A stretch of DNA of 37,297 bases, from assembly GCA_023266115.1 (NCBI GenBank), contig JAHFRU010000023.1, positions 1-37,297 of the forward strand, in the 5' to 3' direction. The position numbers and the translations under genes are program-made. The notes below the pieces were generated by a model that saw nothing but the letters and a program-made list of their open reading frames with translations, was not told where the DNA came from and ran no database searches. How positions within the stretch are numbered: the first letter of the stretch is position 1; each line of letters opens with the position of its first letter. This document shows, piece after piece, positions 28,305 through 37,297 of the stretch. Source of the stretch: Gammaproteobacteria bacterium (GTDB lineage Bacteria > Pseudomonadota > Gammaproteobacteria > VBWC01).

Positions 28305-28865
28305 TTAGGCGGCATCGCCGACCGGCGGAATCCTGCCGATCGTTGCTGTGCTTACGCCCATGATCCGCGCCAAATGCCGGACGCTCTCGCCTTTGCCGCG
28401 CTCGGCCGCCACCCAGGCCCGTTGCTGGGGTGTAAGGCTGAACTTGGGACCGAACTTCACGCCGCGCGCCTTTGCGCGCTGGCGGCCCTCTCCGGTCCTG
28501 CTCAAGATTAGCTCGCGCTCGAACTCTGCGAGGCCGCCTAGAACGGTGACGATCAACCGGCCATGCGGCGTCGTGGTATCGGCCCACGGATCGCGCAACG
28601 ATCTGAACGCGGCCCCGCGCGCCTGGATGGTGTCTAGCGTGTTCAATAGGTCGCGCGTCGATCGCGCCAACCGATCTAACCTGGTCACGATAAGCGTGTC
28701 GCCGGCCTCAAGCGTTTTGAGCGCTCGCGCGAGCTGCACCCGCGCCGATCGCGCGCCCGATGCCGTTTCGGCGAACGTCTTGGCGGCGCCGGCCGCGTCC
28801 AGCTCGGCGAGCTGGGCCGCTAGGCTCTGGCCCTCTGTCGATACCCTGGCGTAACCGTAAATCAT
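28305..28865 (-). CDS. Serine resolvase of the Tn3/ParA type
   Basis: 186 residues from the ATG at 28865 (MIYGYARVSTEGQ), with catalytic Ser9. The usual resolvase motifs follow: TRLDRLARSTRDLL, TPHGRLIVTVLGGLAEFERE, and a C-terminal HTH (ESVRHLARIMGVSTATIGRI). It would resolve plasmid multimers or transposition cointegrates. The upstream residues of the longer frame (to 28970) are not resolvase-like. Direct repeats TGAGACG (28875 and 28888) right before the start are candidate res subsites. Confidence 0.88.
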   Translation of the reverse strand: MIYGYARVSTEGQSLAAQLAELDAAGAAKTFAETASGARSARVQLARALKTLEAGDTLIVTRLDRLARSTRDLLNTLDTIQARGAAFRSLRDPWADTTTPHGRLIVTVLGGLAEFERELILSRTGEGRQRAKARGVKFGPKFSLTPQQRAWVAAERGKGESVRHLARIMGVSTATIGRIPPVGDAA

Positions 28866-28991
28866 CCGGCTTAGTGAGACGGAATTATGAGACGCGCAAG
28901 GGCGCGGAAAAGCGTGGTGTGACCTCCGGCGCTGATTGGCACGGTTCTCCAGCGCTTGGCGGCACGGCAAGAGCGAGTTGCCTTCCGGGCA
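28866..28991. promoter_or_regulatory. Candidate res/promoter region of the first resolvase
   Basis: 126 bases between two same-strand resolvase genes. TGAGACG repeats 13 bases apart (28875-28881, 28888-28894) lie closest to the start codon. No gene seen. Confidence 0.35.
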
Positions 28992-29588
28992 TCAGGCGGC
29001 CTTGGCCGTCACCTCGCCCGCGCTGCGGCTCAGAGTACGATACACCGTTGGCCGCGAGATGGAGAACAGCTCGGCGAGGTCGCTGACCGAGTAGTCGCCG
29101 GTATCGTACATTCGCCGAAGCTCGCGCTGCTGCCGATCGGACAGCTTGGGCTTCTTGCCCCGGAGCTTACCCTTGGCCCGTGCGACCGCCATGCCTTCGC
29201 GGGTGCGCATGCGGATCAGGTCTGCCTCGAACTCGGCGAAGGTAGCGAGGATGTTGAAGAACATCTTGCCCATCGGATCGGTCGGATCGTGGACGCTGGA
29301 CCCGAGCTGCAGCTTCACCCCGCGCGCGGCGAGCGCGTCGGCGATGGCGCGGGCATCGGGGACCGAGCGGGCCAGCCGGTCGAGCTTGGGCACCACGAAC
29401 GTGTCGCCGGCCCTCACGGCCGCCAGTGCCTGGTCGAGTCCCGGCCTCAGCCGGTTCGATCCGGTGAAGCCGTGGTCGGTGTATATGCGATCGGCGGCGA
29501 TACCCATTTCGGCGAGGATGCCTTTTTGGGCAGCCAGGTCCTGCTTGTCAGTCGAGCACCGGGCGTAGCCGATCATAGTGTGGGTCAT
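28992..29588 (-). CDS. Serine resolvase next to the Tn552-like insertion
   Basis: 198 residues from the ATG at 29588 (MTHTMIGYARCSTDKQ); ATG at 29576 is equally possible. Catalytic Ser lies in ARCSTDKQ. Other motifs: KLDRLARSVPDARAI, MGKMFFNILATFAEFEADLI, and HTH DLAELFSISRPTVYRTLSR. A frame extending to 29705 exists only because the Tn552-like end supplies an ATG. Its res site should lie just upstream and seems interrupted by the transposon that begins at 29678. Confidence 0.88.
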   Translation of the reverse strand: MTHTMIGYARCSTDKQDLAAQKGILAEMGIAADRIYTDHGFTGSNRLRPGLDQALAAVRAGDTFVVPKLDRLARSVPDARAIADALAARGVKLQLGSSVHDPTDPMGKMFFNILATFAEFEADLIRMRTREGMAVARAKGKLRGKKPKLSDRQQRELRRMYDTGDYSVSDLAELFSISRPTVYRTLSRSAGEVTAKAA

Positions 29589-29620
29589 GGAGTCGATCTG
29601 TAACGATAGTGGCCCCATCA

Positions 29621-29644
29621 ATGCAAAAGATATAGTACCAGTCT
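29621..29644. promoter_or_regulatory. Left part of the split res site
   Basis: ATGCAAAAGATAT lies about 35 bases before the resolvase start. It resembles ATGCAAAACCTAT at 33593-33605, beyond the other end of the transposon, so the two probably formed one res region. Confidence 0.4.
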
Positions 29645-29677
29645 TGTGAGACTCGGCCCAGCCCGGGATTGTGGCCC

Positions 29678-29705
29678 TGTAAACGCTCACGCTAAGTGGC
29701 GGCAT
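29678..29705 (+). repeat. Tn552-like terminal inverted repeat, left
   Basis: TGTAAACGCTCACG begins the copy; tniB ends 18 bases inside it. The inward extension CGCGATCA/ATA is shared with the other end. Confidence 0.8.
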
Positions 29706-29722
29706 TCTGATCGCGGTATTTG

Positions 29723-30601
29723 TCAGTTGCCGGGCCCGATCACCAGGCAGTCGCGCGCGGCCTGAACGATGTCGGGCGACACCTCGCTGATGCGGTTGAG
29801 GGTCATGATCCTTCGCATCTGCGCGAACAGGCGCTCCATCAGGCGGAAGTTGCCACGCGTGATGCGGATAACCGCCGCCTGCGCCTCGATCGCGTCGAGC
29901 TGGGCCGGATCGAAGGTGATGCCGAAGTCGCTGGCATGGGTCGCGAGCAGCAGGCGCATCTCGGTCTCGGTGAGCGGCTTGAACTCATGCACGAAACCGA
30001 TGCGTGAGTAGAATTGTGCGTAACGAGCAAGGCGCTTTTCCAGGCCCGGCATGCCCATGAGGATCAGTCCGAAGCCTTGCCGGTCGGACAGGTCGCGCAA
30101 GTGTTCGAGCGATTTGATCGACAGGCGATCGGCCTCGTCGACGATGACGAGCGGACAGGCGACGCGGGCAACATCGTGGGTGGCTTCCTCGTGCGAGCCG
30201 CTGGCGACCGTCAGTCGCGCATAGCCCATCTTGATCAGGTTGAGGCCCAGCGCCGCGTCGATCGTCTTGGGGGTGTTGCTAACCGAGACGGTATAGAAGA
30301 CGGCCCGGCAACGCGCGACCTTTTCGGCAAGGTGCGGCGCAATGGGACGGAGCGCGGCATATTCCGCCAGGTCGGGGAAGCTGGAAAACTCGCGCGCCGA
30401 TCGGGTCTTTCCGACGCCCGGCCGCCCGTGACACACACCGATATAGCGGTAGTGCGCGCAGGCTTCGGCGAACTCGACGAACCGGGCATGTTCGCGCGTC
30501 GCCAGGAACGGCTGCTCGACCGGGAACTCAATCGTCAGCGGCGTAGAGCCGGAGGCCTCGATAGGTGATGGGCTGGGAAGCCGTATCCTCTTGGTCGCCA
30601 T
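29723..30601 (-). CDS. tniB: TniB-like transposition ATPase
   Basis: 292 residues from the ATG at 30601 (MATKRIRLPSP), overlapping tniA by 74 bases; ATG at 30637 is an alternative. AAA+ motifs: Walker A GRPGVGKT (59-66), Walker B LVIVDEADRLS near 160, then LMGMPGLEKRL. TniB/MuB-type ATPases choose the target and activate the transposase. The length matches the 271-residue Tn552 ATPase group more closely than longer Tn5053 TniB. Confidence 0.88.
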   Translation of the reverse strand: MATKRIRLPSPSPIEASGSTPLTIEFPVEQPFLATREHARFVEFAEACAHYRYIGVCHGRPGVGKTRSAREFSSFPDLAEYAALRPIAPHLAEKVARCRAVFYTVSVSNTPKTIDAALGLNLIKMGYARLTVASGSHEEATHDVARVACPLVIVDEADRLSIKSLEHLRDLSDRQGFGLILMGMPGLEKRLARYAQFYSRIGFVHEFKPLTETEMRLLLATHASDFGITFDPAQLDAIEAQAAVIRITRGNFRLMERLFAQMRRIMTLNRISEVSPDIVQAARDCLVIGPGN

Positions 30602-32000
30602 CGAAGGCCTCCGTGTTGGCGAGCGCCTGTTTGTCACGCTCCCTTGCGCTACGCCGCGCGTGCTGGATCGCCCGCAGCGACGGGTGGCCTACGTGCTCGG
30701 GACTGAGCGCGCGGCAGACGAACCGGCCTTGGTGGTAGACATGGATTTCGGTGAGATCGCGGGGATCATAGATCGCCTCGACTTGTTCACCGACGAAGGC
30801 GGCGAGCGTGGGTTCGACGTAGCGCCGGCCCATTAGGCGGATGCCGTCGCGCAGGACCTTGCGGGGCTTGGGCACGTGAACGAGCAGCATATCGAGCTGT
30901 TCGAGGCTGTCGGGCATGGCGGGCAGAAACCCGCCCTTTTGCCATCGCGTGATCGGCGGTTCCCCGGTGCCGCCATGTGAACGACGATGATAAACGTTAC
31001 ACACGAACGCCTCGAAACGCGTCCGCAGCTCGTCAAGCGTGAGGGCTGGTGCCGACAGCGGCTTGCCCGCGATCGTGTGTCCAGGCAGGTCGGGCAGGAA
31101 CATATCGTTGATGGTGCGAAATACCCGCTCGATCTTGCCGCGTCCGCGCGGGCGACCGGGCAGCGAATGGATGAGGCGAATTTTAAGGGCGATGCACGCC
31201 TGCTCGATATGGTCGGAGATGAAATCCGAGCCGTTGTCGACGTAGAGCTGTTCGGGAATGCCACTGACGATCCACTCGGGGTTGGGCTTGCGCCAGATCG
31301 CCTGTCGCAGTGCCAGCGCCGTGTTGAGGGCGCTAGGCGCATCGAGGGTGAGGAAATAGCCGGCGATGGCCCGACTGTGATCGTCGAGAACGACGGTCAA
31401 CCAGGGGCGCTCCGGCGCTCCGTCGTCATCGAGAACGAGGATGTCGAGAACAGTATGGTCCGCCTGCCACATCTCGTTCGAGGCCGCGGCTTCGCGCCGG
31501 TGCAGCAGCTCGTGCTCGTCGCGGTAGGCAGCCGGATTGGAAGCCACGGCGATCTGGCTTGCCGGTATTGCCCTGACGACGCGCGCGACTGCCGGGTAGC
31601 TTGGCGGCCGGTGCCCTTCTGCAACAGCGAGTTCCTGGACCTTTCGGTGAATGGCGCTGATCGGGGGCCGCGGGCGCTTGATGGCTAGATCGCGGGCAAG
31701 CCTGACTAGGTGGTCCGGCAGATGCAGCCTGCCCCGGTCGGCGCGCGAGATGCGTGCGAGACCGGAGAGGCCTTCGGATCGATAGCGGGCAAGCCAGCGC
31801 TGCAATGTTCGTTCGCTCACCGAGCTGCCGCGAGCAATATCCGCGAGCGTAACGCTATCGACAAGATGCGGTTCAAGAATGCGATAGCGCTCGATCGCCA
31901 GCGGCGGGGCGAGCGCCGGATGCGTCACCGCCGACCCGCCGACGCGCAAGTAAGGAAAACGGAGATTTGCTTGCCCATAGACATGCCAATCCGATCGCAT
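30528..32000 (-). CDS. tniA: TniA-like DDE transposase
   Basis: 490 residues from the ATG at 32000 (MRSDWHVYGQANLRF), close to the 480 of Tn552 transposase. The N-terminal HTH part includes SVTLADIARGSSVSERTLQR. The rve catalytic domain has Asp in MWQADHTVLD, Asp in LYVDNGSDF and Glu in GRGKIERVF. A Mu-type C-terminal beta-barrel follows (RRYVEPTLAAFVGEQVEAIY). The enzyme cuts the terminal inverted repeats and joins them to target DNA. All three catalytic residues are intact. Confidence 0.92.
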   Translation of the reverse strand: MRSDWHVYGQANLRFPYLRVGGSAVTHPALAPPLAIERYRILEPHLVDSVTLADIARGSSVSERTLQRWLARYRSEGLSGLARISRADRGRLHLPDHLVRLARDLAIKRPRPPISAIHRKVQELAVAEGHRPPSYPAVARVVRAIPASQIAVASNPAAYRDEHELLHRREAAASNEMWQADHTVLDILVLDDDGAPERPWLTVVLDDHSRAIAGYFLTLDAPSALNTALALRQAIWRKPNPEWIVSGIPEQLYVDNGSDFISDHIEQACIALKIRLIHSLPGRPRGRGKIERVFRTINDMFLPDLPGHTIAGKPLSAPALTLDELRTRFEAFVCNVYHRRSHGGTGEPPITRWQKGGFLPAMPDSLEQLDMLLVHVPKPRKVLRDGIRLMGRRYVEPTLAAFVGEQVEAIYDPRDLTEIHVYHQGRFVCRALSPEHVGHPSLRAIQHARRSARERDKQALANTEAFDGDQEDTASQPITYRGLRLYAADD

Positions 32001-32061
32001 TGCCAATCCGGCCTGTTCGACGTAAATCTACCCGGTAAAGAAAACTAGGGCAATTTAATCC

Positions 32062-32072
32062 TGTCGATGATG
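32062..32072 (+). repeat. 11-bp direct repeat, copy 1
   Basis: TGTCGATGATG; the second copy is at 32776-32786 and spans the start of the DUF6624 gene. The two bracket the internal resolvase gene. Confidence 0.4.
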
Positions 32073-32119
32073 ACTTTTCTGCCAAAAGCCCGTTGCCAGG
32101 GCCGCATCGCTCGCCCACG

Positions 32120-32692
32120 ATGAAAATCGGATATGCGCGCGTCTCGACGACCGAGCAGAATCTCGACCTGCAACGGGATGCCTTGCTGGCCGCCGGATGC
32201 GGGAAGGTTATCACTGACAAGGCTTCCGGCGCGACGACCGCCAGGCCCGGACTTGAGCAGATGAAGGAGCAGCTGCGCGCCGGGGACACACTGGTGGTGT
32301 GGCGGCTTGACCGCCTCGGCCGATCGCTGCGCGACCTCATAGGATGGATGACCTACCTCGAAGAGCACGAGGTCGGCCTGCTGAGCCTGCACGAAGCGAT
32401 CGACACGACCACCACCTCGGGCAAGCTCACATTCCACCTGTTCGGCGCGCTGGCGGAGTTCGAGCGCAACCTGATCCGCGAGCGCACCCAGGCTGGCCTC
32501 ACCGCGGCCCGCGCCCGTGGCAAAAAAGGTGGCCGGCCGACCGCACTCAACAAGGACAAGCGCGACCTGGCTGTTCGGCTCTATCACGAAAATACCATGC
32601 CGATCGCCAAGATTTGCTTGATGCTCGGCATCTCCAAACCGACGCTTTACGCTTACGTCCGGTCGGCCGAGGCCGCCGATAAAGCGGCGTGA
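32120..32692 (+). CDS. Resolvase of the Tn552-like element
   Basis: 190 residues from the ATG at 32120 (MKIGYARVSTTEQN), catalytic Ser9. Typical Tn3/Hin-type small resolvase: WRLDRLGRSLRDLIGWM, TSGKLTFHLFGALAEFERNL, C-terminal HTH (IAKICLMLGISKPTLYAYV). It is divergent from tniA across a 119-base gap that probably holds its res site, an arrangement like that of Tn552. It would resolve cointegrates made by TniAB. Confidence 0.9.
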   Translation: MKIGYARVSTTEQNLDLQRDALLAAGCGKVITDKASGATTARPGLEQMKEQLRAGDTLVVWRLDRLGRSLRDLIGWMTYLEEHEVGLLSLHEAIDTTTTSGKLTFHLFGALAEFERNLIRERTQAGLTAARARGKKGGRPTALNKDKRDLAVRLYHENTMPIAKICLMLGISKPTLYAYVRSAEAADKAA

Positions 32693-32775
32693 GAGCGCGG
32701 CCGTCTCAGGCTCTGGGCTCGTTGGAATTGGTCGCAGCTGGTGTGTTGCCTCGGCGCAAGAAACACAGCATCGTT

Positions 32776-32786
32776 TGTCGATGATG
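32776..32786 (+). repeat. 11-bp direct repeat, copy 2
   Basis: TGTCGATGATG, including the two ATG codons at the start of the DUF6624 gene; matches 32062-32072 exactly. Confidence 0.4.
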
Positions 32787-33494
32787 TTGCTACTGTTTCT
32801 CGCCGCAGTCGTATCTAGTCCCGTGCAGACGACCGCGCGGATGCGCGCAGCGCCGGCGTCCACGCCGACGCCGGCTTCGGCCATGTCGCCAAATGCGTTA
32901 GCGGCCCTGCGGCAATTCAAGGATGCAGTCGCGGCCGAGCAGGCAGCGTTTCAGACCCTGCCTGTCGCAAATGGGGCCGGACCTAATTTAGCAGTTCGCG
33001 TTGCATTGGAGCAGGCGATGCGGCGCGCGATCGATCCCGCTGTCGCGACGCTATCGGACGGCGATCGAGCCGCAGCGTCGGCGGTGATCTGGCAGCGGAT
33101 CGGTGAAGTCGATGCAGCGAATACTGCGTATGTGAAGTCGATCCTGCCGGCGGACGGCTGGTTCAGGAGCCGTCGCGATGGCGCGGATGTAGCCCGCAAT
33201 GCCTGGCTGATCGTCCAGCACTCGCCCGATCAAGCGTTCCAGCGCGTCGTCGTGACGCGAATGCGGCCGCTGGTTGCGTCGGGGGATGCGCGTGGGCCGG
33301 ACTATGCGCTGCTCTACGACCGGACCGAGATGTTCGCAGGACGGCCGCAGCTCTATGGCAGCCAAATGACGTGCGTTAGCGGGCGGTGGCAGGCAGCGCA
33401 GACTGTCGATCCGGCGAGCCTCGACCGTCGTCGCGCCGACATGGGGCTGCCACCAATGGCTGAATATCTGAAGAACTTCGAAGGTGGCTGCTGA
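32781..33494 (+). CDS. Exported DUF6624-family protein, transposon passenger
   Basis: 237 residues from the ATG at 32781. A signal peptide (MMLLLFLAAVVSSPVQTTA) is followed by an Ala-rich helical part and then the DUF6624 pattern: ILPADGWFRSRRDGADVARN, AWLIVQHSPDQAFQ, YALLYDRTEMFAGRPQLYG, and RRADMGLPPMAEYLKNF. The function of DUF6624 is not known to me. It ends 44 bases before the right transposon repeat, so it is the passenger gene of the element, in the place where Tn552 carries beta-lactamase genes. Confidence 0.75.
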   Translation: MMLLLFLAAVVSSPVQTTARMRAAPASTPTPASAMSPNALAALRQFKDAVAAEQAAFQTLPVANGAGPNLAVRVALEQAMRRAIDPAVATLSDGDRAAASAVIWQRIGEVDAANTAYVKSILPADGWFRSRRDGADVARNAWLIVQHSPDQAFQRVVVTRMRPLVASGDARGPDYALLYDRTEMFAGRPQLYGSQMTCVSGRWQAAQTVDPASLDRRRADMGLPPMAEYLKNFEGGC

Positions 33495-33538
33495 ACGATA
33501 CCGCGCTCGTCAGGGCCGACGACAGATAGCGCGATCAA

Positions 33539-33566
33539 ATGCCGCCAATTACCGTGAGCGTTTACA
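33539..33566 (-). repeat. Tn552-like terminal inverted repeat, right
   Basis: Ends CGTGAGCGTTTACA. Internally, GATACCGCGCTCGTCA (about 33497) and GATAGCGCGATCA (about 33526) look like further transposase-binding repeats. Confidence 0.8.
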
Positions 33567-33592
33567 CCCGGATTTCAGCCGTTTTCCAGGCG

Positions 33593-33616
33593 ATGCAAAA
33601 CCTATGAATTTTGCAT
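33593..33616. promoter_or_regulatory. Right part of the split res site
   Basis: ATGCAAAA and TTTTGCAT form a perfect 8-bp dyad with an 8-base centre (24 bp), the size of a resolvase-dimer subsite. The half-site ATGCAAAA also occurs at 29621 next to the resolvase gene. The rest of 33617-33812 is AT-rich, with no gene seen, and presumably holds the promoter for the next gene. Confidence 0.45.
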
Positions 33617-33812
33617 CATAACCAACTAGCTCCTTACAGGAGATATGCATAAGATACTGAAATCTTACCGTAATATGACATAGTTAATTATTCATCCGTC
33701 GCGATTACGGCACGTTCTACAGAAATATTATGTATCATTAGTATTATTGCAGATAGCATTAAGCGTCATACGGTGCTTGCACAGTCTGACTTCGTTATGA
33801 TGGGAGTGAAAC

Positions 33813-36883: not shown

Positions 36884-36938
36884 ACACTGACCCCACGCAA
36901 ATCAAGGCTTTTCGAGGCCTAATTCCAGAAGGGTTCAA

Positions 36939-37297
36939 TTGGGACAGCGCGCCGCCATCTACGCCAGGGTTTCGACAGCCGACCAGTCGTGCGAACGGCA
37001 GCTCCGCGACCTGGCCGGCTTTGCCGAGCGTGGCGGCTATGAAGTGGTCGAGGTCTTCCGCGAAACCGCGTCGGGCATGAAGGCAAACCGTTCGGCGCGG
37101 GCTGAGGTGATGAAGCTGGCGCAGGCACGCCATATCGATGCGATCCTCGTTACCGAACTCAGTCGCTGGGGGCGTTCGACCCAGGACCTGCTCGATACAC
37201 TCAACCGGCTGTCGGGCTGGCGCGTGTCGGTGGTCGCGATGAGCGGCATGACGTTCGAGGTCGATACGCCGCATGGGCGGATGATGGCGACGATGCT
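36939..37297 (+). CDS. tnpR: Tn3-family resolvase, cut by the window end
   Basis: 119 residues visible from a TTG at 36939, with AGAAGGG (36927-36933) five bases upstream. It starts MGQRAAIYARVSTADQS with catalytic Ser12, then VFRETASGMKANRSAR, VTELSRWGRSTQDLLDTLNR and TPHGRMMATM, all resolvase catalytic-domain motifs. The DNA-binding part lies beyond the window. Position just inside a 38-bp Tn3-type repeat identifies it as the transposon's own resolvase; the transposase is not in the window. Confidence 0.88.
   Translation, partial: MGQRAAIYARVSTADQSCERQLRDLAGFAERGGYEVVEVFRETASGMKANRSARAEVMKLAQARHIDAILVTELSRWGRSTQDLLDTLNRLSGWRVSVVAMSGMTFEVDTPHGRMMATM

Follow-up and report, generated by a model that had tools for sequence, protein, structure and literature searches.

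The locus and its setting

The window, by which we mean the whole 37,297-nucleotide stretch of DNA analysed here, is contig C25 of a 3.1-Mb draft genome comprising 46 contigs. Its genes, as read from their translations, include conjugation-like and parA/parB-like genes, and the window looks like a plasmid. The closest relatives of the transposon it carries, and of a resolution site next to that transposon (res B, below), are nearly all found in sphingomonads, which points to a sphingomonad as the probable host of the plasmid. Searches within the family and within the order of the window covered two genomes each.

The gene of a separate resolution system, resolvase 1, lies at 28305-28865 on the minus strand (PF00239, 2e-41) with its own upstream region at 28866-28991. 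It adjoins the gene for resolvase A (28992-29588, minus strand), a serine recombinase of 198 amino acids (PF00239, 2.8e-39; HTH_7) whose upstream res is cut by the transposon. At the end of the contig, positions 36930-37295 hold a partial resolvase gene with 99.6% DNA identity to copies on Sphingomonas and Sphingobium plasmids.

A Tn552-like element

The transposon spans positions 29678-33566 and is 3,889 bp long. Comparison of its ends identifies terminal inverted repeats of 29 nucleotides that are 93% complementary; the left repeat (the tniB end, 29678-29706, plus strand) begins TGTAAACG, and the right repeat (the cargo end) occupies 33538-33566 on the minus strand. Similarity between the ends continues to 47 nucleotides at 89%.

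Four genes fill the interval from 29723 to 33494. The first, tniB (29723-30637, minus strand), encodes an AAA ATPase target-selection protein (PF13401, 3.6e-21) and has an alternative ATG start near 30602. TniB matches structure 8xvb weakly (1.5e-5), the chain of which we take, from the name given there, to be Mu B. The DD(35)E transposase gene tniA (30528-32006, minus strand; PF00665, PF09299) encodes a protein related to TnsB structures, the best being 7svw (4.7e-46); its D, D and E residues were located by eye in the translation. Divergent from tniA is the gene for the element's internal (cointegrate) serine resolvase (32120-32692, plus strand; PF00239, 8.7e-47). The spacer between these two genes (32007-32119), of which 79-90 nucleotides are kept at about 88% in most relatives compared, is the presumed internal res, a function suggested by its position and conservation. 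The fourth gene (32775-33494, plus strand) is cargo and encodes a DUF6624 protein (PF20329, 4.3e-23). It is present in none of the 13 related loci compared, and its plasmid relatives are all below 60% identity, with none close. None of the four genes encodes TniQ according to the domain search, and the element has no room left for tniQ. Tn552 is not known to carry a tniQ either.

Relatives of the element are mostly 3,073 bp long, about 85% identical, and without the DUF6624 gene; they are common in Sphingobium, Sphingomonas, and Novosphingobium. An earlier note on this DNA had named the element Tn552-like, and its gene content bears this out: a DDE transposase with rve and Mu C-terminal domains and likeness to TnsB, an AAA ATPase partner, and a serine resolvase of its own. 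The note was right that such an element lies here but gave its extent as 28992-33616, a span that also takes in the adjoining resolvase gene and a dyad on the other side. Its placement of the left end upstream of a resolvase start likewise holds, at a distance of 89 rather than 90 bases.

The left flank is the accessory half of res A

Resolvase A is 83-88% identical in protein sequence to its counterparts in loci L081, L082, L084, and L086, and 85% identical to that in L054; among the matches listed, its gene and upstream bases have 75-82% DNA identity to other alphaproteobacterial resolvase genes. The 89 bp between its start (29588) and the element, 29589-29677, consist of approximately 69 conserved base pairs followed by 20 bp of variable spacer. 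This segment is the resolvase-proximal, accessory-site half of a res that we call res A, conserved in all six homologous loci; the last 20 bp, 29658-29677, fall in the variable spacer and are assigned to res A by position alone.

The subsites of this and the other res sites described here are inferred from conservation and symmetry. In the six loci (L081-L086) conservation extends over some 60-69 bp ahead of the start codon; beyond it come a variable spacer and, at roughly 110-136 bp from the start, a dyad. The dyad reads GTCCG-N16-CGGAC in five of the six, as it does in L054; in L086 it is GTCC-N17-CGGAC and lies about 10 bp further out than in the other five. This arrangement matches the layout of Tn3-type res sites in the part of the literature available to us (PMC12217951), where the accessory sites lie beside the gene and site I is furthest away.

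Locus L054, from Sphingobium chungbukense, provides an intact insertion at this site. Its 6,690-bp relative of the element likewise lies 89 bp from the resolvase A gene, in the orientation opposite to that in the window. It is flanked by a perfect 6-bp duplication, CGACGT, and has a perfect res A site I beyond its far side. With L054 as the positive control, a pattern search finds no res A site I in the window, and across the genome it gives three matches, all with three mismatches, versus five for a reversed control pattern.

In L082, L083, and L085 the resolvase A relatives lie 148 bp from the divergent tniA of another Tn552-like element, with a whole res between the two genes. Because of this arrangement, resolvase A itself may be descended from the internal resolution module of a transposon.

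The right flank is the distal half of a second site, res B

The 53 bp to the right of the element are 89% identical to C23:247-299 and 83% identical to C24:4102-4153 of the same genome. Both matches begin exactly at the element's end. Leftward of the match, C23 and C24 continue with TGCATC repeats and then the start codon of a different resolvase, resolvase B, which has 31% protein identity to resolvase A. Homology within the genome and to plasmids thus identifies 33567-33619 (plus strand) as the distal half of res B, consisting of spacer and site I; the proximal half and the resolvase B gene are missing here. Pattern and alignment together identify the 24-bp dyad at 33593-33616, 26 bp beyond the element's right end, as site I of res B.

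This site is widespread. Matches to a 161-bp stretch of C24 that contains the res B region come from 37 plasmid records and cover at least 80% of the query in 23. In six further plasmids, examined from 25 res B matches listed (L091 was obtained separately), the res B bases lie upstream of a resolvase B gene and the DNA past site I is unrelated. The resolvase gene is annotated in five of the six; the record of the sixth, L114, carries no annotation. The right flank can be aligned gap-free to the DNA upstream of the resolvase B genes, beginning at position 39. Its local alignment scores against res B are 34-41 in C24, C23, L091, and L113 and 24-27 in L028, L111, L112, and L114, the weakest being L115 (12) and L116 (11). 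Against five res A distal halves the scores are 5-11. Among five res A spacers tested there is a short likeness to that of L081 (score 11; shuffling gives p 0.003) and to that of L082 (p 0.05).

As with res A, an intact insertion is available. In L028 a complete relative of 3,073 bp lies in res B, flanked by the duplication ATCTGC. Its position is one base from that of the window junction, and the res B half-site TGATGCAAAA is present on both sides of that insertion.

Other arrangements of these systems were also seen. In L088 (C23:1-208 of the window's own genome, G000) res B precedes a resolvase B gene cut to its first 29 codons, after which the sequence is unrelated. A Sphingomonas paucimobilis plasmid (L091, 3456-4034) has, besides an intact res B, a second site I of this type that stands alone about 550 bp from it. 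Resolvase 1 is 50% identical in protein sequence to resolvase B and 37.5% identical to resolvase A, and the bases upstream of its gene look, by eye, like the res B of L116 in layout, but their half-sites are different.

The flanks do not rebuild one res

The earlier note had taken the element for one insertion that interrupts a single res of resolvase A, so that rejoining the flanks would restore that site. Its starting point was the presence of ATGCAAAA half-sites on both sides of the element, at 29621 and in a perfect 24-bp dyad at 33593. These occurrences are as it described, the word being found in both arms of the dyad. The word is present four times in the window versus 0.90 expected, a count reached in one of 100 shuffles. 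The dyad pattern, with up to three mismatches allowed, is expected 0.11 times and appears at least once in 11 of 100 shuffles; by sequence alone the dyad is only moderately unlikely, and it is its conservation in homologues that marks it as real. A single insertion would also account for spacing, since with 5 bp removed the centre of the dyad falls, in a count by eye, about 122 bp from the resolvase start, near the distance of site I in the res A homologues.

However, the element is bordered by TGGCCC on the left and CCCGGA on the right, hexamers that agree at no more than three positions in register, and there is no target duplication between the flanks of the window element. The right flank corresponds to res B, and the site I of res A, as seen in L054 and most of its homologues, is absent from the window. 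ATGCAAAA was considered as the common half-site of one resolvase and rejected: the res A of L054 carries this word although its own site I lacks it, which makes the sharing incidental. Uninterrupted copies of the flanks show how each site continues: empty res A (L081, L084, L086, and L054 with the element removed) and empty res B (L089, L091, L111-L114) each run on into different DNA. The note itself named, as evidence against its reading, an uninterrupted sequence in which these flanks are not joined, and the homologues of both res A and res B are of this kind. We therefore regard a single insertion in one res as highly improbable.

Insertion sites of related elements

We scanned 91 loci for ends of the element. 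At least one end is present in 74, and 51 have both ends together with at least six flanking bases; the counts below refer to these 51. Perfect target duplications of 6-8 bp flank 11 of the 51 copies and represent nine distinct positions, L092, L093, and L094 sharing one insertion position that is counted once. (The window and L010 are likewise the same insertion.) Eight of the nine distinct insertions have, no more than 100 bp from one end, the start of a resolvase gene that points away from the element. The ninth, L062, has no resolvase, with just 140 bases available on one side. Elsewhere in these loci, at a distance from the element, the 100 bp before resolvase starts account for 1,200 of 690,525 positions (0.17%). 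Against this background the description of the element as a res hunter, also made in the earlier note, is well founded.

The targeted resolvases fall into at least five divergent groups, with between-group identity mostly 33-52% and at its lowest about 31-40%. A dyad beyond the far end is clear in L028, L054, L060, and L092 and weak in L050, and insertion between the accessory sites and site I looks typical for the family. In five of the eight insertions the tniB end is towards the resolvase and in three the other end is, although these are few events.

A 6-bp duplication is lacking in 40 of the 51 copies. The distal flank of the res targeted in L050 (res C) is carried by 33 of the 51, and 32 of these 33 are without the partner flank seen in L050. 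L013 and 32 other copies have the res C distal flank at one end and, mostly, several different non-res flanks at the other. These correspond to a widespread copy that is missing the side with the resolvase; its end point in L023 is 4 bp from that in L049 and L056. Since most copies without a duplication (32) join the res C flank to another end that is mostly unrelated, the family often loses the flank on one side. Apart from the window and L010, its twin, the only copy that lacks a duplication and lies beside a resolvase gene is L039, at a distance of 76 bp; it is possibly a second fusion of two res sites.

Origin of the junction

We conclude, with a probability of roughly 0.86, that the element in the window joins halves of two different res sites through a deletion. 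Its tniB end is situated within the res A spacer, its cargo end abuts the site-I half of res B, and the two sides have no duplication in common. Complete relatives occupy the same positions, within 1 bp, in an intact res A (L054) and an intact res B (L028). Both systems are incomplete here, res A being without site I and res B without its proximal half and resolvase gene.

The junction could have been produced in the assembly, by the collapse of two near-identical copies and the joining of the wrong flanks. The window does come from a draft in many contigs, and the element exceeds the length of a short read. However, L010, from another genome, has the same junction in an assembly that also contains one such element, with a single difference in 8,379 bp (99.99% identity), which speaks against misassembly. 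Each of the two genomes has only two ends of this sequence; G000 adds a third on contig C1 that is 92% identical over 96 bp and so differs from these. We consider an artefact very unlikely.

A deletion between the two res sites could be reached through two copies of the element. TniA and TniB would recognise res DNA with resolvase bound to it, at a point between the accessory sites and site I. They would insert the element once into res A and, on another occasion, into res B, in both cases with the tniB end facing the resolvase gene. Two copies in the same orientation would then be present on one molecule or cointegrate and would recombine through the element's own resolvase, for which such a crossover would be the normal job, or through homology. 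The crossover would delete everything between the site I of res A and the proximal half of res B. Two copies in the same orientation and a crossover within the element give exactly the product observed.

The same product is expected from a single element that began in res A (or res B) and moved into the other res on the same molecule. In intramolecular replicative transposition the DNA between the old and new sites is lost, and one flank of each remains, with no duplication. The prevalence of copies without a 6-bp duplication, and of res C distal flanks without their partner, fits this route, and Tn502 copies without repeats are likewise reported and explained by transposon activity after insertion (PMC7765201). 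On the other hand, the like orientation of the two half-insertions is required by a deletion between two copies, whereas under intramolecular transposition it is merely possible. The sequence fits both routes. We favour the two-copy route, to which we give slightly better than even odds, and regard a single intramolecular transposition as a serious competitor that falls somewhat short of them.

No parental plasmid with both copies was found, nor was the reciprocal junction: the genome contains no element ends other than the pair in the window and the one on C1, beside which searches with res A and res B give no match. Identity measured piecewise along the element shows no switch that would mark a hybrid of two copies. 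The element differs by 11-18% from the 3,073-bp relatives and by 11-17% from L011, with a slight lean to L011 and L061 in the 5' half of tniA.

Following the deletion between res A and res B, resolvase A appears to have lost its site I, and the site I of res B its neighbouring resolvase. Resolvase 1 (28305-28865) or the system of the element itself may still serve the plasmid.

Comparison with known res-targeting elements

In the parts of the account available to us, Tn552 of staphylococci inserts in res regions with 6-bp duplications (10 bp in the sin res), has terminal repeats of about 120 bp, and encodes a resolvase, Bin, for which deletions are reported (PMC3276174). The element described here resembles Tn552 in its combination of transposase, partner protein, and serine resolvase, and in its insertion into res. 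Its relatives also have duplications of at least 6 bp (6, 7, or 8 bp, in 11 of the 51 copies), although the copy in the window has none. It differs in its ends, which are 29-47 bp long, in having a DUF6624 gene where Tn552 carries a beta-lactamase as cargo, and in its sphingomonad host range. With likeness judged by gene content and duplications, we call it Tn552-like rather than an isoform of Tn552.

The Tn5053/Tn402 elements, known as res site hunters, also encode TniA, TniB, and a resolvase. According to excerpts of two papers they target res mostly between box I and box II (PMC7765201, PMC12217951), and one of these describes tniQ, 5-bp repeats, and one preferred orientation (PMC7765201). 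The present element is not a member of this group, since it has no tniQ, its relatives have duplications of 6-8 bp, and their orientation is divided five to three, few though these events are. A comparable split is that of In104 in SGI1, which in the portion of the source seen interrupts a res in the spacer between box I and box II, presumably disabling resolution, and where removal of the insert and one repeat restores the res (PMC12217951). In contrast, the flanks in the window derive from different systems.

We found no account of this element in sphingomonads in the open-licence literature. The type of event is already known, from Tn552 in staphylococcal res sites with resolvase-driven deletions, as far as the available parts of PMC3276174 describe it. 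What is new is the target set of this lineage and a clear junction of two res systems.

Implications

A more far-reaching proposal, which we put forward tentatively and consider rather unlikely as a whole, is that two-protein targeting without TniQ recognises resolvase-bound DNA whatever the sequence of the resolvase, and that the element acts as a joiner of modules. If this is true, insertion in res sites and deletion between them would fuse plasmid segments and leave hybrid half-res junctions such as the one described here. The nine insertions with intact duplications, spread over at least five divergent resolution systems, form a natural set in which to study target recognition by TniA and TniB without TniQ. 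To a type known best from staphylococci, the findings add a res-hunting lineage that has no tniQ and is common in the plasmids of sphingomonads. They show an element taking multimer resolution systems apart and joining plasmid segments at those sites, by steps that are each of a known kind.
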